Assembly (NCBI RefSeq): GCF_001544455.2
Contig: NZ_FCOC02000010.1
Coordinates: 62,001 to 126,000 of the forward strand
Source of the DNA: Caballeronia sordidicola
Lineage (GTDB): Bacteria > Pseudomonadota > Gammaproteobacteria > Burkholderiales > Burkholderiaceae
DNA: 64,000 nucleotides
Direction of reading: 5' to 3'
This document shows positions 26,401 to 41,504 of this stretch, piece by piece; the stretch's first letter is position 1; the number at the start of each line of letters is the position of its first letter. The notes beneath the pieces are model-generated. The model ran no database searches, was not told the origin of the DNA, and saw only the letters and a program-made list of their open reading frames with translations. Position numbers and translations under genes: made by a program.

Positions 26401-27692
26401 TGCGCGCCCGTCTTGACAAAGAATTGCCGCAACGAAGACGGCGGCACATCCGTCATGATCGACTCCGGGTACACGCCGGCCCGCGCGCGGGAGACCGCGC
26501 TTTCGTCGATATCGGTGGCGAACACCTGGATATTGGCCGTCGAGCGAAGCAACTCACGCTGCTCTGAAAGCAGGATGGCAAGCGAATACGCTTCTTCGCC
26601 CGACGAACATCCCGCCACCCACGTCCTGACCTGATCGCCCTCGTTCTTGCCCTGGAACAGCGCGGGCAAGACGTCGCGCCCGATAGATTCGAAAGCTTCC
26701 CGATCGCGGAAAAAGCTCGTCACGCCAATCAGCATGTCCTTGAGCAACGCGCCCGTTTCGCGGCCGTTTTCCCTCAACAGGTCACGGTACGCAATCAGGT
26801 CCGGTACGCCGTTCACCTGCAGACGCCGCTCGATGCGGCGCAACATGGTGGCGCGCTTATAAAAACGAAAATCGTGGCCCGTGCGCGATCGCAAAGTGGA
26901 AAGGATGTCTTGCAGCGCTACCTCTGCTTCACCCCGGCGGTCGGCTCGCTCATTCGGGCTCAACGAGGGTGGATCTGCCTCCGGCAGCGCGATACGCTTC
27001 GCGTTGTTCCATATATCCAGCAACCGCTGCGGCATTTCCACGACAGGCATCACCAGATCGACCTGGTCTGTCTGGATGGCGTTCTGTGGCATCTCGGCGT
27101 ATTCGGCGTCGTTCGGTTCCTGCGCGAGCGTCACGCCGCCGCGCTCCTTCACGGTCGCGATGCCTACCGCGCCATCACTGCCGGTTCCCGACATGACGAT
27201 GCACATGACATGCTGGCCATGCGCCTCGGCGAGACTGCGAAACATCCGGTCTATGCTGACCGGGCGGCCGGTGTTGGGTTCGACATCGCGTGCATTCAGA
27301 TAACCGTCCGACATGGTCAGGTTCTTGCCCGGCGCGATGACATACACGTGATTCGGTTCAATTGGAATCGGCCCGCTGACCTGCAGCACACGCATGCGGG
27401 TCACGTTCTGCAGGACCTTGTCAGCGCTGCTGACGTGCTTCGCCGACATATGCAGGACGACAACGAACGCCATGCCCATATCCGCCGGGGCATTTTCGAA
27501 AAAACGCAGCAATGCCTGGACGCCACCTGCGGAGGCGCCTATGCCGACGACGGGAAAACTCAGCGAACTCGAACGGTGCGCGGAGCCCGGACCGTCATCG
27601 GCCGCGTTCTCATGACCGGTGCCATTGCTCTTCGGCGGGACCGTCGATGTTGATATCTCACTCACTCCAGGGCCTCGCTCGTGACGCTTCAA
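23409..27692 (-). CDS. CheB-CheR-PAS-histidine kinase-receiver hybrid protein
   Basis: A 1427-residue multidomain signalling protein. In order: CheB methylesterase (Ser54 in GASAGG, His81, Asp173 in SGTGSDG), CheR methyltransferase with its N-terminal helical domain (SFFRDREAFE; SAM site GCSSGEEAYS), a PAS-like domain, a long coiled coil near the middle with Glu/Leu heptads, two more PAS domains, a HisKA dimer domain with the phospho-His in MLSHELKHP, a HATPase domain, and a C-terminal receiver with Asp in LLLCDIGMPG. No transmembrane helix is seen, so it is cytoplasmic. No chemoreceptor or other che gene is nearby, so it probably serves a non-flagellar stress or light/redox pathway. Confidence 0.95.
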   Translation of the reverse strand: MKRHERGPGVSEISTSTVPPKSNGTGHENAADDGPGSAHRSSSLSFPVVGIGASAGGVQALLRFFENAPADMGMAFVVVLHMSAKHVSSADKVLQNVTRMRVLQVSGPIPIEPNHVYVIAPGKNLTMSDGYLNARDVEPNTGRPVSIDRMFRSLAEAHGQHVMCIVMSGTGSDGAVGIATVKERGGVTLAQEPNDAEYAEMPQNAIQTDQVDLVMPVVEMPQRLLDIWNNAKRIALPEADPPSLSPNERADRRGEAEVALQDILSTLRSRTGHDFRFYKRATMLRRIERRLQVNGVPDLIAYRDLLRENGRETGALLKDMLIGVTSFFRDREAFESIGRDVLPALFQGKNEGDQVRTWVAGCSSGEEAYSLAILLSEQRELLRSTANIQVFATDIDESAVSRARAGVYPESIMTDVPPSSLRQFFVKTGAHYEVVKSIREKILFAMHNVLRDPPFSRLDMVSCRNLLIYLDRSVQHQVLEMFHYALYPNGYLFLGSSESADSVEDLFTIVDKKNRVYRAKAAKLPHRPALASPTINAGRAPSNEERAYAMVPGRRNFSFNALHQRVLEQYAPPSVIVNRDSKIVHMSDNAGRFLRYVGGEPSSNLIAVVLPELRLDLRTALFQAVQTGNSVEARRVKLQRDGHPSFVNMTVRPFHDAAADGDFVLVLFDEVQEAMTENVVAAQYDAGHETVMQQLEQELHLSKEQLQTTIEQYETSTEELKASNEELQAINEELRSATEELETSKEELQSVNEELITVNAELQTRIEETGKANDDLQNLITSTDIATIFVDRGMFIKRYTPSAATVFNLIGADVGRSLFDITHKLNYPELADDVSATFQSLRLIEREVASSDGRWFLARLLPYRTADDRIDGALLSLIETTARRSAEANVRAGEERLRLAAQTTNDFAIIVQDPDGRIVSWNAGAERVFGYSEHEAVGLNIEVIYTSKDREIGAPGREREIAQHDGRADDERWQVAKGGRRVYCSGVVTPLNDPKFTGYAKILRDLTDRKTQDDARQTQLAQERAVRAQAEAANRLKDDFLAMLSHELKHPLNLIHVKAEMLSRIPEARGVQVIQLAAQAIQRAVVGQAKIIDDLLDLSRVRTGKLALNLAAGDVAQMLATIAAAAEAEAASRGIALSFVGLDEPLWTKVDLVRFDQIVWNLLSNALKFTPRGGSVSVRLSREGDELRIDVTDTGIGIEASLLPHIFEMFSQGIEARRRTGGGMGIGLALVKQLVEMHAGRVLAQSDGAGRGTTVSVWLPLVEGRPARTTTEEQERNGLLAGVRTLVVDDDAETAIAFAALLQLEGAVVMTAHSGSEALAYLDHEPVDLLLCDIGMPGISGHELIDQVRSNPQFANLPAIALTGYPASVDENGSRAKGFDLSLTKPVSLDALIAAVEQVFFWRGAHGGETHDGDAGGERGGDTDKQA

Positions 27693-28208
27693 TGGTCGAT
27701 AGATGCCGCTTCGCCTGACTCACAGCGGGGCAACGATGATCCTCGCGGGCGCATCCAAACGGATCCGACCGGCTAAAAACGCCATCCATGCTCGCTCGCT
27801 TGCTTGCTTGTGTCTCGCTTGGGCGGACGCCATTATATTCAAGCCGCGTTCAATAGGGACAGAAGGACGATTCTCGACGGACTTGCTTTCTCAACAGAAG
27901 TGCTTGATAGCCATGCGCCCGTCAAACCTGGAAGAAAGCGTTCCAGTCCGCTAATCAGGGCCGGCAAGGGCCGATGCGTGTTCAACCCGTTTTCGGTTTC
28001 ACGCTGACTCATACACACGAAAGCATCACCACCAGGTGACACTGTATCGACTGCCCCATCCGGCAATTCCGCGCGCGGACCGATTGGCAATTTTAACTCC
28101 GATACGAGGCTGGCCGAGGCACGCATCCAAAATGGTGCGCAATGCGCATGCCGTTGGTAATCATCGTTTGCCCGAGGTTCGCGGCATGGAAACGCGCAGC
28201 AACGTACT

Positions 28209-28227
28209 TGAAGACTTTAAGTCTTCA
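28209..28227. promoter_or_regulatory. Perfect 19-bp palindrome, candidate operator
   Basis: TGAAGACTT (28209-28217) and AAGTCTTCA (28219-28227) are exact reverse complements around a single T. This compact symmetry is typical of a dimeric repressor site rather than a terminator, as no T run follows. It is 179 bases upstream of the next gene. Confidence 0.45.
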
Positions 28228-28307
28228 GGGGAATGCGGCGGGTGTTTTCGCAGCACTCGGAAATTCCTGCGTGTCCCCACTTTTACTAAAGCAAATCCCT
28301 ATGTTTA

Positions 28308-28331
28308 GCCGTCAACTTTTCCGTTGACGGC
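28308..28331 (+). promoter_or_regulatory. Perfect 9-bp hairpin ahead of a ribosome-binding site
   Basis: GCCGTCAAC (28308-28316) pairs exactly with GTTGACGGC (28323-28331) around TTTTCC. No T tract follows on either strand, so it is not a standard terminator. It ends 15 bases before GGAG (28346-28349) and could form in the leader of the downstream transcript. Confidence 0.45.
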
Positions 28332-28353
28332 CCGTTAAAGTGTTTGGAGCAGT

Positions 28354-28452
28354 ATGAAAAACCGATTCATTCGATGGAAACCGCGCCGTGGCATCACTTC
28401 CCCTCTTCGATCCGACCCTGCAAACTACCCTCGTGGCGCCCAGCAGCCGTGA
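28354..28452 (+). CDS. Candidate 32-codon leader ORF overlapping the next gene
   Basis: ATG at 28354 has a good ribosome-binding site (GGAG at 28346-28349). It encodes 32 mostly basic residues beginning MKNRFIRWKPRR and stops at 28452, out of frame inside the next gene. The next gene's own GTG start at 28388 has a weaker site. It may be a translated leader or only chance. Confidence 0.25.
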   Translation: MKNRFIRWKPRRGITSPLRSDPANYPRGAQQP

Positions 28453-28843
28453 ACTGACGTACCGGGCACAGCGACTGATCGCCGATATGCGCGATAGCCT
28501 CACCGCAACGGTCACGCTCGCAGTCACCGGAGTGCTCGCAATTTTATTGCTTGAGGCGTGGGATCTTCCGGATACGCTGGTCCTCGGCCTCCAGGAGATC
28601 GTCGGCGTTGTCGTATTCGCTACCTGCACATGGCTCATGTATGAACGCGGCGAGAAAAAACTACAGCTGTATTCATTCGAACCCGCAGACCACACCATGA
28701 CGGGCGAAATACGCGCACTGCTCAATCGCCTGCCGGACGGAGCAGCGTATCAGCGCGCCATCGATGCCGAACAGCGCCCATACACGACAGGCGAACTGGA
28801 CGAAATTCGTACGCGCGTGAGAGCTTTCTTCCCGGCTGAGTGA
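28388..28843 (+). CDS. Small two-helix membrane protein, unknown function
   Basis: A 151-residue protein with two membrane helices (~residues 39-58 and ~65-87) between a cytoplasmic-looking N-terminus and a ~60-residue charged C-terminal domain. No family is recognised. The frame is closed by a stop at 28355-28357, and GTG 28388 is the first start after it. It precedes the glycan cluster by ~125 bases on the same strand, but nothing shows a functional link. Confidence 0.6.
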   Translation: MASLPLFDPTLQTTLVAPSSRELTYRAQRLIADMRDSLTATVTLAVTGVLAILLLEAWDLPDTLVLGLQEIVGVVVFATCTWLMYERGEKKLQLYSFEPADHTMTGEIRALLNRLPDGAAYQRAIDAEQRPYTTGELDEIRTRVRAFFPAE

Positions 28844-28967
28844 GTCGAGGCGTCTTCGGCACTCAAGACAGTGATTTCTACGCGGACGTGAGCCCGTGAG
28901 ACAGCGTCCCCGGTATCAGGTCCGCGTTTTGCGTTTTCAGGCGCATCGTGTCCTGCCCGAAAACGCC

Positions 28968-29660
28968 ATGTCCGAAACTTTTTCGCGGCCGCTGGTCGTG
29001 TCCCCGCATTTCGACGACGCCGTCTTCAGTTGTGGCGCCCTGCTCGCCGCGCACGCCGGCGCGGTCGTTCATACCGTTTTCTCCGGCTGCCCGGCTGACC
29101 AAGTAACAACGGATTGGGACCGGCAGTGCGGCTTTGACAATGCGGCGCAAGCGATGCAAGAGCGCGCCCGCGAGGACGACCGGGCACTGCATACTCTCGG
29201 CGCAACGCCTGAGCGGGGCGGATTTCTCGACGCGCAATACGTGCCTTACGGCGCACATCCAAGCACCGAGGCAATCGCGCGGACACTCGACGAAGCAGTT
29301 CACAGGTGCAGCACGCACACACTCCTCATTCCGTTCGGGCTCTTCCACTCGGATCATGAACTCGCGCATCGGGCTTGCATCGACGTCTGGCGGGCGAACC
29401 CCTCGCTCGAATGCGTCGCTTACGAAGATGCGCTCTACCGGCGCATGTCCGGACGCTTGCAAGCGCGCCTCGCGGAACTCGCCACGCGCGGTATCGTCGC
29501 GACGCCGGAGCCTTTGCATCGGCATGCGAATCAACGCGAACAAGCGCTCAAGCAAGATGCCGTCAGAGCATACCCGAGTCAGCTCAAGGCGTTCGGACCG
29601 GAGGGGTACGACGACGTCTTTTGCACCGAACGCTTCTGGAAGCTCGAGCAAGCCAAATGA
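28968..29660 (+). CDS. PIG-L family N-acetylglucosaminyl deacetylase-like protein
   Basis: A 230-residue LmbE/PIG-L zinc hydrolase, a family that removes N-acetyl groups from sugar conjugates. The metal motif is PHFDDA (residues 13-18) with a second metal His in the HSDH element (127-130). The ATG at 28968 was chosen because homology starts just after it; a GTG at 28896 would add an unlikely extension. It is the first gene of the glycan cluster and overlaps the following GT2 gene by ATGA. It probably deacetylates an amino sugar in the assembled glycan or its precursor. Confidence 0.85.
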   Translation: MSETFSRPLVVSPHFDDAVFSCGALLAAHAGAVVHTVFSGCPADQVTTDWDRQCGFDNAAQAMQERAREDDRALHTLGATPERGGFLDAQYVPYGAHPSTEAIARTLDEAVHRCSTHTLLIPFGLFHSDHELAHRACIDVWRANPSLECVAYEDALYRRMSGRLQARLAELATRGIVATPEPLHRHANQREQALKQDAVRAYPSQLKAFGPEGYDDVFCTERFWKLEQAK

Positions 29661-30589
29661 AAAACGATGCCCTGCGCATTGACCCAGACGCTGCTCCGCA
29701 AACGGCCCCGGGTCCGCGTATATCGGTCGTCGTGCTCACTTATAACCGCTGTGTGCAGGTACTCGAAACGCTCGGCCGGCTGTGCGCGTTACCGGAACGA
29801 CCGCCCGTGGTGGTCGTCGACAATGGCTCGTCCGATGGCACGGCACAACGGATCGCCGAACGCTTCCCCCATGTCACGCTCGTGATTGCGCAGAAAAATC
29901 CTGGCGCGGCCGGTCGCAATCTCGGCGTAGCGAGCGTCATTACCGAATACGTGGCCTTTTGCGACGACGACACGTGGTGGCATGCAGGGTCGCTGCCGCG
30001 GGCTGTGGAGCTATTGGATCGAACACCGCGCGCGGGCGTGCTCAATGCGCGGGTTCTCGTTGACGAAGCCGGTGAAACCGATGACACGTGTAAGCTGATG
30101 GCGCGCAGCCCGCTTGATTCCACCGGTCTTCCGGGGCCTTCCCTGATTGGTTACATGGCGGGTGCATGTGTGTTTCGCACGTCACTCTATCGGCAGATAG
30201 GGGGCTATGAGCCGCGCTTGTTCATTGGCGGCGAAGAAGAACTCGTGTCCCTCGACGTTCTGGCAAGCGGCTTCGCCATCGTGTATGCCGAAGAACTCAT
30301 TCTTTACCATCATCCCTCGCCGCTGCGGGACAGCGGCTTGCGCAGGCGCATGCTCGCCCGCAATGCCGCGTGGGTCGCATGGATGCGCCTGTCGTGGCGT
30401 GAGGCGTGGACCGCCACGCGGTTCGCTTTCAATGTCATTCGCCGTGAAGGTGCTTTTCCTCGCGACGCCGTCACGCTGGTTGCAGCATTGCCGTGGGCGC
30501 TGTCCCGGCGCCGCAGGATTTCTGCTGACGTTTCGCGCATGCGCGAAGAGGTGTGGCGTGCCGAGCGTGACATCGCAGCCGAGAGATAA
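29657..30589 (+). CDS. Family 2 glycosyltransferase
   Basis: A 310-residue GT-A enzyme. The nucleotide-binding start SVVVLTYNR is near residue 23, the metal-binding DDD is at 103-105, and the acceptor-side segment GGEEELVSLD follows near residue 191. The C-terminus is helical and basic, suiting peripheral membrane attachment. It overlaps the PIG-L gene by four bases (ATGA), suggesting that transfer and deacetylation act on the same sugar. Donor and acceptor are unknown. Confidence 0.88.
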   Translation: MKNDALRIDPDAAPQTAPGPRISVVVLTYNRCVQVLETLGRLCALPERPPVVVVDNGSSDGTAQRIAERFPHVTLVIAQKNPGAAGRNLGVASVITEYVAFCDDDTWWHAGSLPRAVELLDRTPRAGVLNARVLVDEAGETDDTCKLMARSPLDSTGLPGPSLIGYMAGACVFRTSLYRQIGGYEPRLFIGGEEELVSLDVLASGFAIVYAEELILYHHPSPLRDSGLRRRMLARNAAWVAWMRLSWREAWTATRFAFNVIRREGAFPRDAVTLVAALPWALSRRRRISADVSRMREEVWRAERDIAAER

Positions 30590-30781
30590 CCCGGATACGC
30601 ATTGCATCACTAACTAAATAAGCAAGCATACGCACGCAAAATAAATGCGTGGGTATCGCAACGAACCAACGCTTCTATCGTTCACTCGGCGAGTGGCACA
30701 ACGAATGCTGTGTCTGGTGCAGTCCGCAATTCGCCAGCGGCCGTCATTCTCCAGTAAAAGACCTTCTCCAGGGACGCCATC

Positions 30782-32062
30782 GTGAAGATCGCACTCGTCA
30801 GCGAACATGCGTCGCCGCTCGCCGTTGCCGGCGGCGTCGATAGCGGCGGTCAAAATATCTACGTCGCAAACGTAGCGCGTCAACTTGCCCGCAAGGGACA
30901 TCAGGCCGATGTCTTTACGCGCTGTGACAGGTCGTTGTTGCCGCTTGTATCCCGCTTCGATGGGACACGTGTCATCAATGTACCGGCCGGTCCCGCGAAG
31001 CAATTGGCAAAGGAGAATTTACTGCCGTATATGGACGAATTCGCCCGCTTCGTGATCCAGTTTTTTCGCAATGAACGCACGCAATACGACGTAGTCCATG
31101 CGAATTTTTTCATGTCGGGCCTCGTGGGATTGCGCGTGAAGCAAGCCATGGGCATACCTCTGGTGACGACCTTCCATGCGCTGGGTCGCGTGAGACGCCT
31201 GCATCAGGGAGCAGAGGACGGCTTCCCGGACGAACGCTTCGCCATAGAAGACGCGGTCGTTCGGGGTTCGGATTCGATAATCGCCGAGTGTCCACAGGAT
31301 ACGTCCGACCTGGTGTCGCTTTATGAAGCGGACCCGGCGCGGATCGATCTCGTGCCGTGCGGCTTTGACAGCGACGAATTTCATCCTGCTGACAAACACG
31401 CGGCACGTGTCGAACTGGGCTGGCCGCAGGACCGCTTTATCGTGCTGCAGCTTGGACGCATGGTGCCGCGCAAGGGCATTGACAACGTGGTGCGGGCCAT
31501 TGGCCTGTGCAACAGGAAACTGGATGAAGACGCACATCTCTATGTGGTCGGCGGTAACTCGGATGAAGCGAACGAAATCGCAACGCCCGAGATCGGCCGC
31601 TTGAGAGGCCTTGCTCACGAGTGTGGCGTGCCGGAGTACGTTCACTTCCTCGGCCGTCGCTCGCGCGCTCGTCTGCGTCTTTATTACAACGCGGCGGATG
31701 TATTTGTCACAACGCCATGGTACGAACCGTTTGGCATCACTCCGCTTGAGGCAATGGCATGCAGCACGCCGGTGATAGGCGCGGACGTGGGCGGCATTCG
31801 CTACTCGGTCGCGCATGGCGAAACCGGATTGCTCGTTGCGCCGAAAGATCCATTGGCGTTGGCCCATGCACTCGTCACGTTGAAGACCGACCCTCAGCTC
31901 GCACGCTCGATGGGGGAAGCAGGCCTTGTACGTGCCCGCGAGATGTTCACATGGGACGGTGTTACGGACACCCTGGCAAGCGTCTATGCGCGCGTCTCGG
32001 GCATTGCTGCGAGCGAAGCGGATGTGACAAGACAACGCGCGGCCGGAGGCGCATCGGCATGA
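30782..32062 (+). CDS. GT4 family glycosyltransferase
   Basis: A 426-residue GT-B enzyme of the GT4 (sucrose-phosphate-synthase/MshA-like) type. The N-terminal loop GGVDSGGQNIYV binds the acceptor side; the C-terminal half has LGRMVPRKG and the donor-site TPWYEPFGITPLEAM with its E-x7-E pair. Start is GTG at 30782. A 192-base gap separates it from the GT2 gene, so a second promoter may lie there. It overlaps the HAD phosphatase gene by ATGA. Confidence 0.88.
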   Translation: MKIALVSEHASPLAVAGGVDSGGQNIYVANVARQLARKGHQADVFTRCDRSLLPLVSRFDGTRVINVPAGPAKQLAKENLLPYMDEFARFVIQFFRNERTQYDVVHANFFMSGLVGLRVKQAMGIPLVTTFHALGRVRRLHQGAEDGFPDERFAIEDAVVRGSDSIIAECPQDTSDLVSLYEADPARIDLVPCGFDSDEFHPADKHAARVELGWPQDRFIVLQLGRMVPRKGIDNVVRAIGLCNRKLDEDAHLYVVGGNSDEANEIATPEIGRLRGLAHECGVPEYVHFLGRRSRARLRLYYNAADVFVTTPWYEPFGITPLEAMACSTPVIGADVGGIRYSVAHGETGLLVAPKDPLALAHALVTLKTDPQLARSMGEAGLVRAREMFTWDGVTDTLASVYARVSGIAASEADVTRQRAAGGASA

Positions 32063-32673
32063 CGTCCCGGCGTGTAATGCATGAACCGCGGAAGCGTCGC
32101 GCGGCTGTGTTCCTCGACAAGGATGGCACCTTGCTCGTCGATGTTCCGTACAACGTAGAACCGGAACTGATGCAACTCGCGCCCGGTGCGTTCGAGGCAC
32201 TGCAGATTTTCGCGCGCATCGGCGTTCCGGTTTATGTGATCAGCAACCAGAGCGGCGTGGCGCTCGACAGGTTTCCTGTCGAAGCCTTGAATGCCGTCGA
32301 AATGCGGCTGCACGAACTTGTCAAGAGATGCGGCGCGAGCCTGTCCGGCATCTACTGGTGCCCGCATCACCCGCAAGGCAGTATCGCGCCCTACAAGCGC
32401 TCGTGCAGTTGCCGCAAGCCCTCACCCGGCATGTTGCTGGCGGCGGCAGACGATCATCACATCGCACTGGAGTCGAGCTGGTTCATCGGCGACATCCTGG
32501 ACGACGTCGAAGCAGGCAATCGCGCGGGGTGCCGCACCATCTTGCTGGACAACGGCAATGAAACCGTCTGGCGTCGCGGGCCGTATCGCGAACCGTTTTG
32601 TGTCGCGGGCGATCTTCAGCAGGCGGCGCTCACGGTTCAAAGCGCCCTGCAGGCCACGGAGCTTGTGCAATGA
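32059..32673 (+). CDS. HAD-IIIA phosphatase, D-glycero-D-manno-heptose bisphosphatase-like
   Basis: A 204-residue HAD phosphatase resembling GmhB and the phosphatase part of HisB. Catalytic Asp20 and Asp22 lie in FLDKDGTL, the SNQSG motif follows near residue 67, and a zinc loop is built from Cys101, His103, Cys116 and Cys118 with the adjacent catalytic KP. GmhB removes the 7-phosphate... of heptose bisphosphate during ADP-heptose synthesis. Two GT9 heptosyltransferase-like genes in the same cluster fit this. It is probably a cluster-specific copy; histidinol phosphatase activity is the alternative. Confidence 0.82.
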   Translation: MTSRRVMHEPRKRRAAVFLDKDGTLLVDVPYNVEPELMQLAPGAFEALQIFARIGVPVYVISNQSGVALDRFPVEALNAVEMRLHELVKRCGASLSGIYWCPHHPQGSIAPYKRSCSCRKPSPGMLLAAADDHHIALESSWFIGDILDDVEAGNRAGCRTILLDNGNETVWRRGPYREPFCVAGDLQQAALTVQSALQATELVQ

Positions 32674-33839
32674 AAGAGGCGCCCATGGTCAACATCGTCA
32701 TGGATTCCCATGCGCGCGCACCCGCGGCGCAGCCGGCACGTCCTTGGGGCGAGGAAGTCAGGCGCATTCTCTGCGTCCGGCTCGACAACCTGGGCGACGT
32801 GCTCATGACCACACCCGCCTTGCATGCGTTGCGTACATCGGCGCCGGGTCGCCACATCACACTGCTCGCATCGCGTTCGGGCGCACAGGCAGCCGGTTAC
32901 GTCGACGACATCGACAATGTGATCGACTACGACGCACCCTGGATCAAGAACGATCGCGCAGCCGATGCGGCCGTCGATCTCGACATGTGTGCACGTTTGC
33001 GCAACGCGCGCTTCGACGCGGCCGTGATCTTCACGGTCTATAGCCAGAATCCGATGCCCGCTGCCATGCTGTGCCATCTGGCGGGCATTCCGAGACGGCT
33101 TGCGCATTGCCGTGAAAACCCCTATGCCCTGCTGACGGACTGGGTCGCCGAACCAGAGCCGCAGACGGGAATACGTCACGAAGTCGAACGGCAACTGAGC
33201 CTCGTGCAGCACATTGGCGCGCATTCGGCCGACCAGCGCATGCACTTCAACGTGCGTGCGCACGATATTGCGTCGCTCACGACCAAGCTCGCCGAGCGCG
33301 GAGTTTCGCTCGACACACCCTTCCTCACGATGCATCCCGGCGCGACGGCAGCTTCCCGGCGTTATCCGGCGGAGCGGTTTGCGCAGGCGGCCGCAAAGCT
33401 TGCAGAGTCGACTGGCTGGCCCGTGTTGATTACCGGCGGTCCTGGCGAAGCCGACCTCTGCGCTCAGGTTGGCGGATCGCACGAAAAGACCGTCAATCTG
33501 GCGGGCGCGCTTGAACTCGGAGAACTCGCCGCGCTGATTGCGCGCACGAAGGTACTGATATCGAATAACAGCGGTCCTGTGCATATTGCGTCCGCACTTG
33601 GAACGCCAGTCGTTGACCTGTATGCGCTCACGAATCCTCAGCACACGCCGTGGAAAACACCGCACGTCGTACTCAATCACGATGTGCCATGCCGGTGGTG
33701 TTACCGCAGCGTATGTCCCGAAGGACATCATGCGTGCCTCACTGGCGTATCGGTGGAGGATGTCGTCAATGCAGCAATGCGGCTTCTGCGCGACGCGGAA
33801 TCGCCGGCAGCAGCACAGGCCTTACTTGCAACCTCATGA
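32670..33839 (+). CDS. GT9 heptosyltransferase-like protein (first copy)
   Basis: A 389-residue GT9 (ADP-heptose:LPS heptosyltransferase family) protein. The N-terminal RLDNLGDVLMTTPALHAL and the C-terminal ISNNSGPVHIASALGTP are family hallmarks. A Cys-rich segment RWCYRSVCPEGHHAC near the C-terminus resembles the one in related GT9 proteins. It starts inside the HAD gene's stop (ATGA). Whether it transfers heptose or another sugar cannot be told from sequence. It has little obvious identity with the second GT9 protein in the cluster. Confidence 0.87.
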   Translation: MKEAPMVNIVMDSHARAPAAQPARPWGEEVRRILCVRLDNLGDVLMTTPALHALRTSAPGRHITLLASRSGAQAAGYVDDIDNVIDYDAPWIKNDRAADAAVDLDMCARLRNARFDAAVIFTVYSQNPMPAAMLCHLAGIPRRLAHCRENPYALLTDWVAEPEPQTGIRHEVERQLSLVQHIGAHSADQRMHFNVRAHDIASLTTKLAERGVSLDTPFLTMHPGATAASRRYPAERFAQAAAKLAESTGWPVLITGGPGEADLCAQVGGSHEKTVNLAGALELGELAALIARTKVLISNNSGPVHIASALGTPVVDLYALTNPQHTPWKTPHVVLNHDVPCRWCYRSVCPEGHHACLTGVSVEDVVNAAMRLLRDAESPAAAQALLATS

Positions 33840-33867
33840 ACCCTTTTCTCAATCAAGGCGACAGGAC

Positions 33868-35613
33868 ATGTACACATTGGGAATCAACGCGGTGTATCAC
33901 GACAGCGCCGCTGCGCTGATCAAGGACGGTACGGTCGTTGCGGCCGCTGAGGACGAGCGCTTCACGCATATCAAGCATGCAAAGCGGCCGGTGCCGTTTT
34001 CGACGTGGCAACTGCCGTTCGACGCCATCGACTATTGTCTGAAGGAAGCGGGGATCGAACTTGCCGATGTCGATCACGTCGCCTATTCATACGACCCGAA
34101 ACTGCTTTCGTCGATGCCCTCGCACGTAGGTACGACCATCGAACTGCCGCTCGAACCTGGCGTGAAGCCGCTGACCAATCCCTCCGAATCGCCGTGGGAT
34201 CCCTTGTTCTTAAGCTACATAGTGAACGCGCGCGCGCAATTGGTGGACGGCGCACCGCATCATCTGATGAAACGCTTTCGGAGCGGCGGCCGCAAACCGC
34301 GCTTCGAATGGCATTACGTCGACCATCACCTTTCCCATGAAGCGAGCGCGTTTCTGGCCGCGCCTTTCTCCAATACCTCAGTGCTTACCATGGACGGACG
34401 CGGTGAAGGAGTGACGACCAGCCTCGGGAAATTCGTCAATGGAGAATACACACGGCTCAGGCAGGTCGAGCTGCCGCATTCGCTGGGCCTTCTTTATGAA
34501 ACGGTAACCAGCTATCTGGGTTTCCTGCACTCTTCCGACGAATACAAGGTCATGGCCCTCGCGTCATATGGCAGGCCCGAACACGTAGATGTGTTCCGGC
34601 AGATCGTGAAGTACCGGCAAGACGGAACCTATACGGTCGATGCGCCTCGTCTTGTGGAGCGCTTCGGCCCCCCGCGTGAACGTGGTGGGCTGCTTGCGCA
34701 GCGGCACTTCGACATCGCGCATTCCCTGCAAGTCGTGCTGGAAGAGACCGTGCTGAAACTGGCCGGATGGCTGCACGAACAAACCGGTCTCAGCACTCTC
34801 TCGATGGCCGGAGGCGTGGCGCTGAATTGCGTGATGAACTCACGCGTGCGGGATCGCGGCCCGTTCAGCGACGTCTGGGTGCAACCCGCATCGGGCGATG
34901 CGGGAACCGCGCTGGGCGCGGCGCTCTGGACCGACTATCGCAAGCGCGCAGAGGCTGGCGACCGTTCGCGCAAGTGGCAAATGGATAACGCCTACCTTGG
35001 ACCCGCGTTTGCCGACGAAGAGATCGAACGACTGCTCAAGTGGACGAAAGCGCCGTATCGGCGGATGCGCGACGTGGCGGCGGAGACCGCAGACATCCTC
35101 GCGCAAAACAAGGTCATCGGCTGGTATCAGGGCCGCACGGAGTTCGGCCCGCGAGCGCTTGGTGCACGCTCCATTCTTGCGTCGCCCGTGGATCCGTCCA
35201 TGCAGGCGAAGCTCAACGAAATCAAGGATCGCGAAGACTTCCGGCCGGTCGCGCCCGTTGTCATGGAGGAATACGCAAACGAATGGTTCGTGGACGGTGG
35301 CGTGGCGCCATTCATGTTGTTCGTTTTCGACGTGCGTCCCGCGAAGGAAACGCAAATTCCCGCCGTGCGTCACGTCGATGGAACCGCGCGCGTGCAGACG
35401 GTGAACCGCCAACAACATGCGCTTTACTATGACCTGATCGACGCCTTCCGCAAACGAACCGGCGTGCCGGTGCTTGTCAACACGTCGTTCAACACGCGCG
35501 GTGAGCCGATGGTGAATTCCCCACGCGATGCGCTGGAATCTTTCTGGACTTCGCCGCTGGATGCACTCGTGATCGGCTCGTTCCTGATCGAAAAAAACGG
35601 GGTTCGCGCATGA
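33868..35613 (+). CDS. NodU/CmcH-family O-carbamoyltransferase
   Basis: A 581-residue carbamoyltransferase that would transfer a carbamoyl group from carbamoyl phosphate, through carbamoyl-AMP, to a sugar hydroxyl. The N-terminal Kae1-like domain has the metal-binding DHHLSHEASAF (152-162) and MDGRGEG. The C-terminal part carries GRTEFGPRALG (422-432) and NTSFNTRGEP. Full length for the family. Start at 33868 fits the MYTLGINAVYHDS family beginning. It sits between a GT9 and a GT2 gene, overlaps the latter by ATGA, and so likely decorates the glycan made here. Confidence 0.93.
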   Translation: MYTLGINAVYHDSAAALIKDGTVVAAAEDERFTHIKHAKRPVPFSTWQLPFDAIDYCLKEAGIELADVDHVAYSYDPKLLSSMPSHVGTTIELPLEPGVKPLTNPSESPWDPLFLSYIVNARAQLVDGAPHHLMKRFRSGGRKPRFEWHYVDHHLSHEASAFLAAPFSNTSVLTMDGRGEGVTTSLGKFVNGEYTRLRQVELPHSLGLLYETVTSYLGFLHSSDEYKVMALASYGRPEHVDVFRQIVKYRQDGTYTVDAPRLVERFGPPRERGGLLAQRHFDIAHSLQVVLEETVLKLAGWLHEQTGLSTLSMAGGVALNCVMNSRVRDRGPFSDVWVQPASGDAGTALGAALWTDYRKRAEAGDRSRKWQMDNAYLGPAFADEEIERLLKWTKAPYRRMRDVAAETADILAQNKVIGWYQGRTEFGPRALGARSILASPVDPSMQAKLNEIKDREDFRPVAPVVMEEYANEWFVDGGVAPFMLFVFDVRPAKETQIPAVRHVDGTARVQTVNRQQHALYYDLIDAFRKRTGVPVLVNTSFNTRGEPMVNSPRDALESFWTSPLDALVIGSFLIEKNGVRA

Positions 35614-36674
35614 GCACGTTCACGGCGGATTCGCTCGATACCTTCGAGAACGCAGAGTCCGGCGCGAACGCGCTGGCAGCCGATTCCACGTTTTCCGCAA
35701 CGCCGGACATCTCCGTGGTCGTTCCAACCTACAGGCGCCCGGCAATGCTCGAGCGTTGTCTTGCGTCCATCCTGACGCAAGACTTCGATCCAGCGCGCTT
35801 CGAAATCATCGTGTGCGATGACGGTCCGGACGAAGCCACTCGCGCGAGCGTTGAACGTATCGCGCTCGAGCATGCGAACACCGGGCCTCATGTGCGATAC
35901 GTGGCCGTCACCGCGACCCAGGGGCCTGCCGGCGCACGCAACGCGGGATGGCGTCTTTCGCGAGCGAACAACATAGCGTTCACCGACGACGATACCCAGC
36001 CCGATGCACGCTGGTTATCGTCGGGGGTGAAGGCGCTTGCGGCGGGGGCCGACGCGGTATCGGGGCGCATCATCGTGCCATTGGGTGCTCGCCCGACAGA
36101 CTACGAAAACGACGCCGCCGGTCTCGCCAATGCCGAGTTCGCAACAGCCAACACGTTTGCGCGGCGGTCCGCGCTGGAACGTATCGGAGGGTTCGATGCA
36201 AGGTATACGTCGGCCTGGCGTGAAGACTCCGACTTGCAGTTCGCGTTCATGGAAGCAGGCGTCCCGATTGCCCGCGCCGACGACGCAATCGTGCTGCATC
36301 CCGTTCGCCCGGCACGCTGGGGCGTGAGCATCTCGCAGCAAAGGAAGAGCCAATTCGACGCGTTGCTTTATAAAAAGTATCCTGCACTTTTCAAGGCCCG
36401 CATCCGCAGCGCGCCGCCATTGCTGTATTACGCAATCATCGTGGCCGCTATCGTTACCCTCGCCGGCAGTGCTTACGGTCATCATCGGCTTGCCGGATTT
36501 GCAGCTGTTGCATGGATCGCTATGACAGCATGGTTTTGCACCCAGCGTCTGCGGCATACGTCGCGCGCGCCTTTGCACGTAATGGAAATGGCATGCACGT
36601 CAATTGTCATTCCTTTCCTTTCGATCTATTGGCGGCTCTACGGCGCGCTGAAATTCAGGGTGCTTTTCTTATGA
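35610..36674 (+). CDS. Membrane-anchored family 2 glycosyltransferase
   Basis: A 354-residue GT2 enzyme with VVVPTYRRP near residue 37, metal-binding DDD at 126-128, and an acceptor-side WREDSDL near residue 205. Two membrane helices at ~272-315 anchor it, so it works at the inner membrane, probably on a lipid-linked acceptor. The ~30-residue Ser/Ala-rich N-terminus is not part of the fold. Overlaps with both neighbours (ATGA) place it firmly in the operon. Confidence 0.88.
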   Translation: MSTFTADSLDTFENAESGANALAADSTFSATPDISVVVPTYRRPAMLERCLASILTQDFDPARFEIIVCDDGPDEATRASVERIALEHANTGPHVRYVAVTATQGPAGARNAGWRLSRANNIAFTDDDTQPDARWLSSGVKALAAGADAVSGRIIVPLGARPTDYENDAAGLANAEFATANTFARRSALERIGGFDARYTSAWREDSDLQFAFMEAGVPIARADDAIVLHPVRPARWGVSISQQRKSQFDALLYKKYPALFKARIRSAPPLLYYAIIVAAIVTLAGSAYGHHRLAGFAAVAWIAMTAWFCTQRLRHTSRAPLHVMEMACTSIVIPFLSIYWRLYGALKFRVLFL

Positions 36675-37717
36675 CCGAACGCATCGCGATCTTCCGCGCA
36701 TTGCAGTTGGGCGACATGCTATGCGCCGTTCCCGCACTGCGCGCATTGCGCCGGGCGAAACCCGACGCGCATATTGCATTGATCGGCTTGCCTTGGGCGC
36801 AGAGCTTCGTCATGCGCTATGCGCATCTCGTCGATGAATTGATCGTGTTCCCCGGCGCTGTCGGCTTTCCCGAGCAAGCCGAGACGGATGAGTATCTCGA
36901 ACGTTTTTTGGACGAGATGCGCGCGCGGCGTCTGGACCTCGCCATTCAGATGCATGGAAGCGGCGGCGTTGCAAACGACATTGCCGGGCGAATGGGTGCA
37001 CGCGCCAACGCGGGTTTCGTTCAGCCTGGCGAAGTGAAGCGTGATGGCATGTTCATCGAATGGCCGGATACGCTCAACGAAATCCTGCGCTATACCGCCT
37101 TGATGAGCGCCTTGGGCATCGGCTCTCACGACACGAGCCTCGAGATTCCCTTGAAGGTCGAAGATCTGGCCGAATACCACGAGCTTGTTCGCCGTTTCGA
37201 CTTGAGACCGGACCGCCTTGTACTGATCCATCCGGGCGCTCAACTGCCATCGCGCCGATGGCCTGCGGAGCGCTTCGCTCAGGTAGCCTCAGCGCTTGCC
37301 GGCGAAGGCTGGCAGATCGCGATCACGGGCGCCGCCAGCGAACACCCGCTTGCTTCGGTCGTCGCTGCCGCAACCACATGCCGCCCGATCAATCTTGCAG
37401 GAAAAACGTCGCTTGGAGGTCTTGCCGCGCTCGTATCCCATGCCCGGCTGGTGGTCTGCAACGACACCGGTTTGTCGCACGTCGCCGCCGCGATGAGGAC
37501 ATGCAGCGTGGTAATCGCATCGGGCAGCGACACGCGCAGATGGGCGCCGCTCGACCGAGACCGGCATCACGTTCTTGCGGACTATCCATCATGCCGCCCG
37601 TGTGCGTTTCGCGAGTGTCCCTACGGGCATCCGTGCGCGCGCAACGTGCGTGTTGAACATGTGGTCGAGGCCGCCCTTCATCAACTCTTTCAGTTCTCGA
37701 CCGCGCATGCCGAATAA
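36671..37717 (+). CDS. GT9 heptosyltransferase-like protein (second copy)
   Basis: A 348-residue GT9 protein with FRALQLGDMLCAVPALRAL at the N-terminus, HPGAQLPSRRWP mid-chain and CNDTGLSHVAAA in the donor-binding half. The C-terminal CRPCAFRECPYGHPC is Cys-rich like that of the first copy and may bind a metal. It starts by ATGA overlap with the GT2 gene. Two GT9 enzymes in one operon suggest two successive heptose-type additions. Confidence 0.87.
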   Translation: MTERIAIFRALQLGDMLCAVPALRALRRAKPDAHIALIGLPWAQSFVMRYAHLVDELIVFPGAVGFPEQAETDEYLERFLDEMRARRLDLAIQMHGSGGVANDIAGRMGARANAGFVQPGEVKRDGMFIEWPDTLNEILRYTALMSALGIGSHDTSLEIPLKVEDLAEYHELVRRFDLRPDRLVLIHPGAQLPSRRWPAERFAQVASALAGEGWQIAITGAASEHPLASVVAAATTCRPINLAGKTSLGGLAALVSHARLVVCNDTGLSHVAAAMRTCSVVIASGSDTRRWAPLDRDRHHVLADYPSCRPCAFRECPYGHPCARNVRVEHVVEAALHQLFQFSTAHAE

Positions 37718-38666
37718 CGCTCCCCGGCGCCTGCGCGTTCTTACATGGCACGTGCATGGCAACTATCTTTACTACCTGACTCAGGCGAATCACGACTTTT
37801 ACCTCGTGACCAAGCCCGGCAGTCCACCCGGTTACGCCGGCGCTGGCGGCGTCTTGCCATGGGGCGCCAACGTGCATGAGGTGCCTGCGGATCAAGTGGC
37901 ATCGCAGGAATTCGATGTGATCCTGTTTCAGCATAAAACCCAATGGGACGACGACCGCATTGACGTCCTGAACGACGAACAACGCCATCTGCCGCGAGTT
38001 TATATAGAACATGATCCGCCGCAGGAAAACCCGTTCGCGCAGCAGCACTGGGTGAATGATCCCAAGACGCTGCTGGTCCACGTGACGCATTTCAACCAGC
38101 TCATGTGGGATTCCGGCGAAACGCCGACGCGTGTGATCGAGCATGGCGTAGTCGTGCCCGAGGGCGTGCGTCATACCGGGGAGAAAGAACGTGGCGTGGT
38201 GGTCATCAACCATCTGCGGCAACGCGGCCGGCGTCTTGGCAGCGACATCTACGCCGATGTAAAAAACCACGTACCGCTGGATCTGGTCGGCATGGACGCA
38301 CAGTCCGCGGGCGGCCTGGGCGAGATCGGCAATCTGGACCTGGCGGCATTTACCGCGCAATACCGCTTCTTTTTCAATCCAATCCGCTGGACCAGCCTCG
38401 GTCTCGCGATAGTCGAGGCCATGACCATCGGCATGCCGATTATCGGACTGGCGACAACCGAACTCGCGACGGTCATACGCAACGGAGAAAGCGGTTACAT
38501 CGATACGAACGTGCCCGCGTTGATCGACGTGATGCAACGCCTGATTCGCGATCCGTCCGAAGCGCGACGGCTAGGCGACGGCGCGCGAAAAGTCGCAATG
38601 GAACGCTTTCACATAGACCGGTTCGTCAAGGACTGGGACGAGACGCTGCGGTATGTCGCGACTTAA
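37707..38666 (+). CDS. GT1/GT4-like glycosyltransferase
   Basis: A 319-residue GT-B type glycosyltransferase. The short N-terminal half begins RLRVLTWHVHGNYLYYL; the donor-site region is FNPIRWTSLGLAIVEAMTIGMPIIG, followed by ATTELATVI and NGESGYI. It lacks the long N-terminal half of ordinary GT4 enzymes, so it is a compact variant. It overlaps the GT9 gene by 11 bases. Donor unknown. Confidence 0.8.
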   Translation: MPNNAPRRLRVLTWHVHGNYLYYLTQANHDFYLVTKPGSPPGYAGAGGVLPWGANVHEVPADQVASQEFDVILFQHKTQWDDDRIDVLNDEQRHLPRVYIEHDPPQENPFAQQHWVNDPKTLLVHVTHFNQLMWDSGETPTRVIEHGVVVPEGVRHTGEKERGVVVINHLRQRGRRLGSDIYADVKNHVPLDLVGMDAQSAGGLGEIGNLDLAAFTAQYRFFFNPIRWTSLGLAIVEAMTIGMPIIGLATTELATVIRNGESGYIDTNVPALIDVMQRLIRDPSEARRLGDGARKVAMERFHIDRFVKDWDETLRYVAT

Positions 38667-38687
38667 CCTTGAGCACTTGGGGGCATC

Positions 38688-39674
38688 ATGAAAGAACATC
38701 ATCGCAAGCGCATTCTGGTGACTGGCGGCGCCGGGTTCCTGGGCTCGCATCTGTGCGAGCGGCTCGTGGCGCAGGGACACGATGTCCTCTGCGTGGATAA
38801 CTTCTATACCGGCACCAAAGACAACATTGCGCACTTGCTGGATTGCGCGAACTTCGAACTGATGCGTCACGACGTGACGTTTCCGCTCTATGTGGAAGTG
38901 GACGAGATCTACAACCTCGCTTGCCCTGCCTCACCCATCCACTACCAGCACGACCCCGTGCAGACCACGAAGACGAGCGTCCATGGCGCGATCAACATGC
39001 TCGGTCTCGCCAAGCGTGTGAAGGCGCGCATCTTCCAGGCTTCCACGAGCGAAGTCTATGGCGACGCGCGCGTTCATCCGCAAAAGGAAGATTATTGGGG
39101 TCACGTGAACCCGCTTGGTCCACGCGCCTGTTACGACGAAGGCAAGCGCTGCGCCGAAACGCTCTTCATGGATTACCGGCGGCAACACGGCCTGTCGATC
39201 AAAATTGCACGAATCTTCAATACATACGGTCCTCGCATGCATCCCTCGGATGGCCGGGTCATCTCCAACTTCATGATGCAGGCGCTTGCCGGCAAACCGG
39301 TCACCATCTACGGCGACGGCTCGCAGACGCGTTCATTCTGTTATGTGGATGACATGATCGACGCATTCATTCGCCTCATGAACAGCCCGGAAGAAGTCAC
39401 AGGGCCGATGAATCTCGGCAATCCGCACGAGTTGTCCATGCTGGCGATTGCGCGAAAAATAATCGAGTCGACAGGGTCGTCTTCCGAAGTCATGTTCGAG
39501 CCGCTGCCGATGGACGATCCATGTCATCGGCAACCGGACATAACGTTTGCCCAGAACACGCTCGGCTGGCAACCCGCCACCGGACTCGACGATGGATTAA
39601 AACGTACCGGAGACTATTTTCGCCGGTTGACCCAGGCGGCTGCGGCCCGGGCGAAGCTGCCGTCCATGGCGTGA
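38688..39674 (+). CDS. UDP-glucuronate decarboxylase-like extended SDR
   Basis: A 328-residue NAD-dependent nucleotide-sugar enzyme. The Rossmann motif [10 protein letters not shown] is at residues 13-22 and the catalytic Tyr/Lys in ACYDEGKR. Stretches [20 protein letters not shown] and [13 protein letters not shown] closely resemble UDP-glucuronate decarboxylases (UDP-xylose synthases). It would supply UDP-xylose (or a related sugar) for one of the cluster's glycosyltransferases. A 21-base gap separates it from the GT gene. UDP-glucose 4-epimerase or dTDP-glucose dehydratase activity is less likely. Confidence 0.87.
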
Positions 39675-39719
39675 CTTGCAGCGCGCGACGCCCGTGTGAT
39701 TGGACGCCACGCGTGCCGA

Positions 39720-41504
39720 CTAGCTCTTCGAAGGAAGCACGCTCGACAACACCTGTTTAGCCGTATCGAGTATCACGCTGCCTTGATCCGGATCGCCTTG
39801 CAACAACGTGGAAGCAAAAGCCTTCGCCTGCTTCACGGTGATATGCGGCGGCAGCGGCGGCACGTTCGGGTCCGTTTTCACCTCGACAAGAACCGGCCGG
39901 TCTGAAGCAAGCGCTTCATCGAACACAGCGCCGAGCCGCTCGGGATCGTCCACGAAGATTCCTTTCATGCCGATCAGTTCCGCGAACTTGTGATAAGGCA
40001 CGTCGGGAATCTGTTGCGACGCCTCGAACTTCGGATCGCCTTCCATCACGCGCTGCTCCCACGTCACCTGATTCAGATCCTGATTATTGAAAACGACACA
40101 GACCCATGCGGCCTCAGCCGGCTGCCGATATTTCATCAATGTGATCAACTCGGCCATGTTATTCATCTGCATGGCGCCGTCGCCGACCATTGCGATCACA
40201 GGCCGGTCACGATACGCAAAACGCGCAGCAATCGCGTACGGAACCGCAGCGCCCATCGATGCAAGGCCGCCCGAAAGCGAGCACATCATGCCGCTCCTGA
40301 CCTGGATATCGCGGGCATACCAGTTTGCGCACGATCCGGAATCGCTCGTCACGATGGCGTTTTCCGGCAGCCGCGATGAAAGCTCGACCGCCACGCGTTG
40401 CGGATTGACCGGCGTGGCGCTTTGCATTGCTCGGTCGTGAAGGGTCTCGTGCCAGTTCCGGTTCCACCGGGAAATCCGGTCACGCCAGCTATTTGCCGTC
40501 TTTTGCTCGAGGAGCGGCAACAGCGCCCGCAAGGTCTCGGCTGCGTCGCCCTGCAGGTTGACATCCATTGGATAACGCAGGCTCAGCATGTCGCCTTTCA
40601 CGTCGATCTGGACACCCCGCGCCTGCCCCTCCTTCGGCAAGAATTCCGCGTACGGAAAACCCGAACCGATCATCAGCAAGGTATCGCACTCGGTCATCAG
40701 CTTATAGCTCGGCTCGGTGCCGAGCAGACCGATCGAACCCGTCACCCAGGGGAGATCGTCGGGCAGCACGGCCTTGCCGAGCAGCGCCTTGGCGACACCC
40801 GCGCCGAGCCTGTCGGCGACCGCGATCAGTTCGTCTCCTGCTTCGAGCGCACCCGCGCCCGCGAGTATGGCGACGCGCCTTCCTTCGTTGAGCACCGCGG
40901 CCGCGCGTTCCAGATCGGCGGCGTATGGCACTATTTTCGGCGCGGTCCATCCCACGCCCGAGTGCAACGTTCCGTGTGCACGGCCGGGCTCTTCATACGG
41001 CGTCTCCTGCAAATCGTTCGGTAAAATGATCGCTGTCACGCGGCGTTCGGATAGCGCAATCCTGACTGCCCGGTCAACGAGATGGCGCACTTGCGAAGGC
41101 ACGCTCGCCTGCTGCACGAACGAACCAGCCACGTCCTTGAACATCGAGGCCAAATCCAGTTCCTGCTGGTAGTGGCCGCCAAGCGCGGACCGCGCCTGCT
41201 GCCCGACGATAGCAAGTACCGGCATGTGGTCCATGCGTGCGTCGTAGAGTCCTGTAATCAGGTGCGATGCCCCAGGCCCCGAAGTCGCAATGCATACGCC
41301 CAACTCGCCAGTGAATTTTGCGTGCGCGCATGCCATGAACGCGGCCATTTCCTCGTGCCGTGCCTGGATGAATTCGATCTTGTCGGGCGCGCGGCCCATT
41401 GCACCGAATACGCCGTTGATGCCGTCACCGGGATAACCGAACATCCTGCGAACGCCCCACGCGTGGAGCCTCGCTACGATAAAGTCGCCTACTGTCTGCG
41501 TCAC
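39720..41504 (-). CDS. Thiamine-diphosphate enzyme, pyruvate oxidase (PoxB)-like
   Basis: A 594-residue ThDP enzyme of the pyruvate oxidase/acetolactate synthase family. The activating Glu is in the N-terminal RHEEMAAFMA, the central Rossmann part has LAGAGALEAGDEL, and the ThDP-binding GDGAMQMNNMAEL lies in the C-terminal third. Overall order and length fit PoxB-type pyruvate:quinone oxidoreductases, which give acetate and CO2, better than biosynthetic acetolactate synthase, and no small subunit is adjacent. It stands alone and converges with the glycan cluster. Confidence 0.82.
   Translation of the reverse strand: MTQTVGDFIVARLHAWGVRRMFGYPGDGINGVFGAMGRAPDKIEFIQARHEEMAAFMACAHAKFTGELGVCIATSGPGASHLITGLYDARMDHMPVLAIVGQQARSALGGHYQQELDLASMFKDVAGSFVQQASVPSQVRHLVDRAVRIALSERRVTAIILPNDLQETPYEEPGRAHGTLHSGVGWTAPKIVPYAADLERAAAVLNEGRRVAILAGAGALEAGDELIAVADRLGAGVAKALLGKAVLPDDLPWVTGSIGLLGTEPSYKLMTECDTLLMIGSGFPYAEFLPKEGQARGVQIDVKGDMLSLRYPMDVNLQGDAAETLRALLPLLEQKTANSWRDRISRWNRNWHETLHDRAMQSATPVNPQRVAVELSSRLPENAIVTSDSGSCANWYARDIQVRSGMMCSLSGGLASMGAAVPYAIAARFAYRDRPVIAMVGDGAMQMNNMAELITLMKYRQPAEAAWVCVVFNNQDLNQVTWEQRVMEGDPKFEASQQIPDVPYHKFAELIGMKGIFVDDPERLGAVFDEALASDRPVLVEVKTDPNVPPLPPHITVKQAKAFASTLLQGDPDQGSVILDTAKQVLSSVLPSKS

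Follow-up and report, generated by a model that had tools for sequence, protein, structure and literature searches.

A conserved ten-gene block of Caballeronia sordidicola resembles the Streptomyces cwg operon and probably directs synthesis of a carbamoylated envelope oligosaccharide

Introduction

The cwg operon of Streptomyces coelicolor consists of twelve genes (SCO6179–6190) that are predicted to synthesize a cell wall glycan, and its expression is induced by vancomycin and depends partly on sigma-E (PMC6767563; the articles on cwg are quoted here from excerpts). Here we describe a block of ten genes at positions 28968–39674 of a 64,000-nucleotide stretch of Caballeronia sordidicola DNA, called the window, which is part of contig 10 of a 6.87-Mb genome (NZ_FCOC02000010.1, assembly GCF_001544455.2). 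The block is probably a Gram-negative counterpart of cwg, and its enzymes would assemble a short envelope oligosaccharide with decorations in the cytoplasm. The earlier note on this DNA, made from the letters without database searches, had not recognised the gene combination as a described system and missed its resemblance to cwg.

A neighbouring sigma-E target, SCO6178, appears as a putative deacetylase in PMC6767563; a paper from 2026, in which SCO6178 is called a glycoside hydrolase, describes activation of cwgA and SCO6178 by salt without a rise of sigE (PMC13011467). The gene cwgA is named as a modelled SigE target (PMC3902916). The products of cwgD, cwgH and cwgI are annotated, respectively, as a putative dehydratase, a phosphoheptose isomerase and a bifunctional synthase/transferase (PMC5839063). 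None of the excerpts on cwg gives a structure for its product. Published annotation also places a heptosyl transferase at position 5, and one paper labels cwgE 'GT1'. The study of Hong et al. 2002 is cited in PMC3123327 and PMC2687793. No published link of cwg with Burkholderiales turned up in the openly licensed literature, subscription papers being mostly beyond the search, and the excerpts of PMC8305402, PMC12013268, PMC3966863, PMC7364216 and PMC5563000 do not describe the block.

Several other systems share parts of its gene content. Mycothiol synthesis brings together an MshA-like glycosyltransferase of family GT4 and a PIG-L deacetylase, MshB, as the window does. However, the GT4 of the window scores below the MshA cut-off of NCBIfam (TIGR03449; 308.2 against 462.5 bits), its PIG-L and GT4 genes belong to separable units, and we know of no counterparts of the other block genes in mycothiol synthesis. 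The pSymB region of Sinorhizobium meliloti (L164) encodes a 41% identical carbamoyltransferase and, 13 kb away, a UDP-glucuronate decarboxylase (UXS)-type SDR (62%), but otherwise yielded just a second SDR (26%) and weak matches to the ABC query. The lipopolysaccharide (LPS) core locus of Pseudomonas contains a PIG-L gene, the carbamoyltransferase gene wapO, an LA:core-OS transporter gene and waaC/waaF (excerpt of PMC8005017). It is thus like the window block in its carbamoyltransferase, PIG-L and two heptosyltransferases, and has its transporter nearby, whereas the window block has UXS, a GmhB-type HAD phosphatase, an MshA-type GT4 and the glycosyltransferase that we call gene 9, and lacks a heptose kinase. 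The low-oxygen (lxa) locus of B. cenocepacia was considered and set aside, as 'carbamoyl' is absent from the main text of PMC6127331.

Results

Gene content of the block and its likeness to cwg

The ten genes are complete and lie on the forward strand, and each product has a Pfam match above the curated cut-off in the family that the earlier note had named. Four-base ATGA overlaps, which the note had attributed to most junctions, are present at five of the nine; the other four comprise an 11-base overlap, gaps of 28 and 21 bases, and a spacer of 192 bases (30590–30781, +) that separates the PIG-L/GT2a pair from a core of eight genes. Pfam assigns none of the ten proteins to a polymerase, flippase, ligase or exporter family, as the note had observed, nor to an initiating lipid-phosphate transferase family, so that the block differs from a Wzx/Wzy polysaccharide locus. 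At 60.6%, the G+C content of the block is the same as elsewhere in the window, and recent horizontal arrival was therefore rejected. A tRNA scan and a search of Rfam at gathering thresholds found nothing.

Streptomyces sp. CA-256286 carries a run of SDR, carbamoyltransferase, GT2, HAD, GT9, GT1, GT4, SIS, HldE, GT9, GT2 and GT2 genes, seven of which were analysed with Pfam. Nine of the ten window proteins match this run at 28–49% identity, with low values for GT9b (28%), gene 9 (33%) and GT9a (33%). The HAD, SIS, HldE and first GT9 genes of the run coincide with positions 4, 8, 9 and 5 of cwg. The entire cwg-type content, namely a carbamoyltransferase, UXS-type SDR, GT2, HAD, two GT9 enzymes, GT1 and MshA-type GT4, is present in the window with each member matched in CA-256286, and a GT2a-type gene is linked in both. 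Unlike the streptomycete run, the window block has PIG-L, lacks GmhA and HldE and has a different gene order. Because GmhA and HldE lie outside the ten genes, we regard the block as a counterpart of cwg and not as the cwg operon itself.

Gene 9 of the window (1e-40) and that of Streptomyces (1e-20), each searched against 72,556 plasmid records, retrieved the same 14 records, ten from Burkholderiales and four from Actinobacteria. Nonomuraea has a rearranged set of block genes. In S. fungicidicus, genes for SDR, carbamoyltransferase, GT2 and GT4 lie next to SIS and HldE, with no match to gene 9. Gene 9 is common in Streptomyces: among its best 120 matches, every entry that names an organism is from this genus. 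No match to gene 9 was found at 1e-10 among 50,697 phage records, and a phage origin was discarded.

Phylogeny of the carbamoyltransferases and GT9 enzymes

All trees were unrooted. In a tree of 26 carbamoyltransferases, 15 Burkholderiales-type and three actinobacterial enzymes from clusters are separated from eight others by a branch with support of 98/96. The eight include a Streptomyces enzyme encoded in a peptide-synthetase locus, non-cluster enzymes from the genus of the window and the S. meliloti enzyme. A further tree, built quickly from 40 rows, omitted five Burkholderiales rows and L050 and included 20 gammaproteobacterial loci; these were hand-picked from 14 genomes among the 100 (of 369) with a match. 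The cluster group held (14 against 26 rows, SH-aLRT 99), and several of the 26 outside enzymes were on long branches. Its sole newcomer, from a class member outside Burkholderiales (L231, genome G1115), is itself encoded in a full run of GT4, short-chain dehydrogenase, HAD, GT9, carbamoyltransferase, GT2, GT9 and gene 9, in the same order. The trees thus indicate that the cluster carbamoyltransferases of both phyla, represented on the actinobacterial side by Streptomyces and Nonomuraea copies, share ancestry.

GT9a and GT9b belong to separate lineages. In a tree of 27 GT9 proteins, which excluded L002 for having no match over 50 bits, each of the two lineages contained both Burkholderiales and actinobacterial members (90/89 and 90/92). 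Because each lineage holds both phyla, GT9a and GT9b appear to have diverged from each other earlier than the copies of the two phyla did.

Enzyme assignments

The motifs expected of their families were found in PIG-L, HAD, GT9a, GT9b, the carbamoyltransferase and the SDR. The block opens with a PIG-L family de-N-acetylase of 230 residues (28968–29660, +; PF02585, 39.6 bits), whose PHFDD and HSDH motifs agree with the deacetylase of the earlier note. Its closest solved structures are glycopeptide pseudoaglycone deacetylases, with a weak score of 35.8 bits. The paired glycosyltransferase GT2a (310 residues, 29657–30589, +; PF00535, 70.2 bits) is 45% identical to the product of the final gene of the CA-256286 run. 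The eight-gene core starts, from a GTG codon, with a GT4 of 426 residues (30782–32062, +), which NCBIfam and solved structures place in the MshA/sucrose-phosphate-synthase type. It scores 236 bits against solved MshA and 229 bits against solved Tll1590, and is 42% identical to the Streptomyces copy. The next gene encodes a HAD-IIIA phosphatase of the GmhB (heptose-bisphosphate phosphatase) type (32059–32673, +), assigned by Pfam and by its DKDGT and zinc-loop motifs; a heptose-bisphosphate phosphatase is its closest solved structure (112.9 bits).

Two members of the heptosyltransferase family flank the middle of the core. The label of heptosyltransferase is supported for GT9a (389 residues, 32670–33839, +; PF01075, 107.4 bits), which exceeds the NCBIfam cut-off for LPS heptosyltransferase II (TIGR02195; 138.7 against 134.6 bits), whereas GT9b (348 residues, 36671–37717, +; PF01075, 119.8 bits) does not reach it (109.1 bits). 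Between them lie the 581-residue carbamoyltransferase (33868–35613, +) and GT2b (354 residues, 35610–36674, +; PF00535, 92.6 bits). The former has both Pfam halves of a NodU/TobZ-type O-carbamoyltransferase (PF02543 and PF16861) as well as HDS and HHxxH motifs. The carbamoylated oligosaccharide proposed earlier is supported as probable. GT2b has one hydrophobic segment at approximately residues 267–290 according to a crude hydropathy scan that flagged gene 9 as well. Gene 9 (319 residues, 37707–38666, +), used as the marker of the cluster, encodes a GT1/GT4-type glycosyltransferase with a predicted GT4-like fold. The last gene (38688–39674, +) encodes an SDR with STSE and YDEGK (YxxxK) motifs that, by its closest structures, is best described as UDP-glucuronate decarboxylase, that is, UDP-xylose synthase. 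It scores 419 bits against solved UDP-glucuronic acid decarboxylase 1 (4gll) and 147 bits against the next kind of enzyme, which upholds the reading of it as UDP-xylose synthase-like. The suggestion that the product contains heptose and xylose is supported in that heptose and a sugar derived from UDP-xylose are likely.

Other genes related to heptose supply are located elsewhere in the genome. A heptose-kinase gene (RfaE domain I) exceeds its cut-off with 396.2 bits, and a GmhA-type gene scores 172.1 bits, under its cut-off of 209.45; both are on contigs other than that of the window. A second GmhB-type gene scores 102.7 bits, compared with about 120.6 bits for the HAD of the block and a cut-off of 149.6.

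Conservation in Caballeronia and Burkholderiales

The block is accessory in its genus. A carbamoyltransferase at least 79% identical to that of the window occurs in 29 of 58 Caballeronia-genus genomes, the count including the genome of the window and two partial copies. Thirty-four loci were taken from the genus; four of them contain different carbamoyltransferases (36–40% identical) and no match to other block genes, and the remaining 30 were analysed for synteny. The eight core genes were present in 26 of these 30 loci and all ten genes in 24, in a single order and on a single strand; the loci without the full set are mostly short or cut contigs. This conserved synteny in the genus rules out a chance or one-off assembly.

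In a scan of named genomes, 270 relatives were detected, and the locus counts are based on 80 of them: Caballeronia, Paraburkholderia, Trinickia, Ralstonia, Cupriavidus and a few others, with some metagenome-assembled genomes. This set shares strains with the 30 Caballeronia loci, and the two are not independent. Core genes were in one order and strand in 66 of the 80 loci, split over two strands in eight (all of them in the Cupriavidus part), and incomplete by at least one gene in six. The six-gene run from HAD to gene 9 was ordered in 78 loci, and all ten genes were found in 39. The synteny in other Burkholderiales that the earlier note had proposed to look for is therefore present.

Gene 9 was detected at 1e-20 in 14 of 398 other genomes sampled from the order. 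In a sample of the phylum, at 1e-30, it was found in four of 398 genomes, that of the window included, all of them Burkholderiales. The steadiest companions of gene 9 in the 14 loci of other genera are HAD and GT9a (13 loci each) and GT4 (12 loci). Given these counts, and the presence of the carbamoyltransferase in seven loci, the carbamoyl, UXS and PIG-L/GT2a functions look like variable decorations.

The PIG-L/GT2a pair is separable from the eight-gene core. Among 124 loci, 72 contained both genes and seven only one of them, and the pair switches side and strand between genera. The single ten-gene cluster of the earlier note is accurate in that the ten genes adjoin, but it overlooked this separability.

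Individual loci show further variation. Two genus genomes contain two copies of the block each: G010 (L030, L042) and G052 (L028, L043). In two small-genome members of the genus, Candidatus Burkholderia pumila (L044/L110) and L045/L103, the carbamoyltransferase gene is either interrupted by an in-frame stop or fragmented, and the block looks as if it were decaying. A plasmid copy from Burkholderia stagnalis (L174:13200–23400) has no match to the carbamoyltransferase, GT2b, HAD or GT2a, and retains SDR, GT4 and PIG-L as pieces only. A short-chain dehydrogenase gene directly precedes HAD in Ralstonia, Cupriavidus and Burkholderia multivorans (L151:3225–4196, L165:9420–10169); it has homologues in the Nonomuraea and Arthrobacter loci and is absent from the window block.

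An ABC exporter at the edge of the block in relatives

In many relatives, the edge of the block is occupied by an MsbA-like ABC exporter, often with a receiver domain, which the earlier note had missed. With a criterion of at least 45% identity over at least 150 residues, matches were present in 18 of the 30 Caballeronia, seven of the 14 order and 52 of the 80 named-genome loci, and extended into a receiver part in 18, four and 32 of them, respectively; many loci end within the exporter gene. Exporters with a kinase-ATPase-like region and a receiver are encoded at L080:12595–15258 (−), L089:11971–14910 (−), L076:14601–17438 (−) and L165:6019–8763 (+). Of six exporters scanned, those of L080, L089 and L076 contain a receiver domain above the Pfam cut-off, one of them with a sub-threshold HATPase_c match (18.8 bits), whereas the shorter exporters of L069, L070 and L078 match neither domain. 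The receiver residues D164, D165, D212, T248 and K270 are invariant in all 15 aligned rows. A predicted model of the exporter extension (pLDDT 83.7, pTM 0.50) had the hybrid kinase ShkA as its top structural match, with poor overall superposition; a kinase catalytic domain appeared at rank 20, and the remainder of the top list consisted nearly entirely of receivers. This architecture suggests that phosphorylation may gate export.

No clear equivalent of the exporter was found in the genome of the window, the best match being 47% identical and having no receiver match. The best ABC protein of the genome is 44–52% identical to the cluster exporters, which share 49–70% identity among themselves. 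It is likely not the missing exporter, although this is not proven because the identity ranges overlap. Export in the strain of the window would proceed by another route or not at all.

Neighbourhood of the block

A gene for a hemerythrin-domain protein is located 5 kb downstream of the block (window 44929–45414, +). The genome has only one other hemerythrin gene, and hemerythrin matches also occur in nine of 94 loci of relatives. Genes next to the block in relatives encode hemerythrin, CsbD, PRC-barrel, DUF4142, BON, ferritin-like and Hsp20 proteins, and those in Streptomyces CsbD, STAS, ANTAR and PP2C proteins. The genome of the window has four CsbD-type matches, none on its contig. The flanking genes of the window are mainly common to its closest relative, L017. 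Upstream of the block, a gene on the reverse strand (window 23409–27692) encodes a 1427-residue CheB-CheR-PAS-histidine kinase-receiver protein, relatives of which are encoded near the block in L017, L088, L108 and L156. The small flanking open reading frame 28388–28843 proved unrelated to a small Ralstonia neighbour. A strict sigma-54 promoter pattern had no match in the six stretches scanned; a looser pattern had none in window 27001–41000, L102 and L127, and scattered matches in L165, L144, L151 and L117.

Discussion

Gene content, conserved synteny and the grouping across two phyla of the carbamoyltransferases and, with moderate support, of both GT9 lineages connect the C. sordidicola block to its actinobacterial counterparts. 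Several observations weigh against reading it as a cwg counterpart that makes an envelope oligosaccharide. The match of the CA-256286 run to cwg is one of gene order and published annotation; the loosest positional match sets a dehydratase (cwgD) against HAD, and the GT1 label of cwgE disagrees with GT9. GmhA and HldE are not among the ten genes by Pfam. The HAD phosphatase scores below both GmhB cut-offs (133.8 against 178 and about 120.7 against 149.6 bits), and GT9a exceeds the cut-off of an LPS enzyme. The support for the GT9 fork is only moderate. PIG-L has no match in the actinobacterial loci tested, the Arthrobacter locus has no match to the carbamoyltransferase, GT2b or SDR, and the Clavibacter locus matches only gene 9, one GT9 and, weakly, the SDR, and not the carbamoyltransferase. 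In the 14 loci of other genera, some of which are cut, all eight core genes occur in only three, and seven lack a match to the carbamoyltransferase. The link of the block to stress is suggestive and comes from neighbouring genes, considered without a background comparison.

The likeness to cwg could be superficial, with common glycosyltransferase families assembled independently in the two phyla. The families are indeed common, several identities to the CA-256286 run are low, and half of the 14 other-genus loci have no match to the carbamoyltransferase. We nevertheless consider independent assembly very improbable: the carbamoyltransferases group across the phyla in both trees, gene 9 queries from both phyla retrieve identical plasmid records, and each of the two GT9 lineages contains both phyla. 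It is unlikely, but less so, that the block makes a soluble, secreted oligosaccharide or aminoglycoside-like metabolite that is not attached to the envelope. GT4 enzymes of the MshA/sucrose-phosphate-synthase type are known to act on small phosphorylated acceptors, antibiotic-tailoring enzymes are among the closest solved relatives of the carbamoyltransferase and, weakly, of PIG-L, and a lipid-carrier initiating enzyme is not among the ten genes. A soluble product fits poorly with the wide conservation of the block in the genus and beyond, with the MsbA-like exporter that adjoins it in many relatives, with the hydrophobic segment of GT2b, which is a weak argument, and with the control of cwg in S. 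coelicolor by the envelope-stress factor sigma-E (PMC6767563).

A side module of the LPS core, one of the options raised in the earlier note, would decorate the Caballeronia inner core with heptose and carbamate. The score of GT9a above the heptosyltransferase II cut-off speaks for it, as does the Pseudomonas core locus, in which a PIG-L gene, wapO, the LA:core-OS transporter and waaC/waaF are combined (PMC8005017). We regard this option as improbable, because nearly the same run exists in Actinobacteria, bacteria that lack LPS, because the block is accessory and because its ten genes, judged by Pfam, include neither the heptose kinase nor the Kdo genes that an LPS inner-core locus would have. 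In addition, the genome has GT9 genes outside the block with higher scores for the family than those inside it (215.6 and 178.9 against 121.2 and 108.9 bits). Moreover, in the gammaproteobacterial locus L236, where GT9-type genes lie about 7 kb from the carbamoyltransferase, this enzyme falls far outside the cluster group and on a long branch; wapO was outside the tree. Because nearly the same gene set is present in Streptomyces, which lacks an outer membrane, an envelope sugar of its own is more likely than a part of the usual LPS.

For the favoured reading, in which the block corresponds to cwg in a Gram-negative setting, a pathway can be proposed from the enzyme families. Its product would probably be an envelope oligosaccharide that is carbamoylated and contains heptose and probably pentose; the sugars, linkages, acceptor, location and role in stress are inferred. 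ADP-heptose would be provided by the GmhB-type phosphatase of the block together with GmhA-type and heptose-kinase-type enzymes, whose genes are located in other parts of the genome. The MshA/sucrose-phosphate-synthase-type GT4 and gene 9 may lay hexose or GlcNAc-type residues on a primer, to which GT9a and GT9b would add heptoses. GT2b may extend the chain, perhaps at the membrane, UXS would provide UDP-xylose or a derived pentose, and the NodU-type enzyme would carbamoylate one of the sugars. GT2a may add an amino sugar, which PIG-L would then de-N-acetylate. In many relatives, the adjacent MsbA-like exporter, which often ends in a kinase-ATPase-like and a receiver domain, would transport the product through the inner membrane, controlled by a phosphorelay; the strain of the window would need another exporter.

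We speculate, tentatively and with more doubt than confidence, that a single ancient pathway for a carbamoylated-heptose oligosaccharide is common to monoderm Actinobacteria and diderm Burkholderiales. It would produce an envelope-stress glycan independent of LPS and teichoic acids, the export of which in diderms would be under two-component control through the MsbA-like exporter fused to a kinase-ATPase-like domain and a functional receiver. If the receiver-fused exporter works as its parts suggest, it would constitute a direct phospho-switch on glycan export. The block would be a Gram-negative variant of a known, uncharacterised type of Streptomyces operon, and its conserved version in easily handled soil Burkholderiales would offer a second system for isolation of the product. 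The occurrence of such a pathway in monoderms and diderms would set its product apart, as an envelope component, from the usual classes of LPS and teichoic acids.

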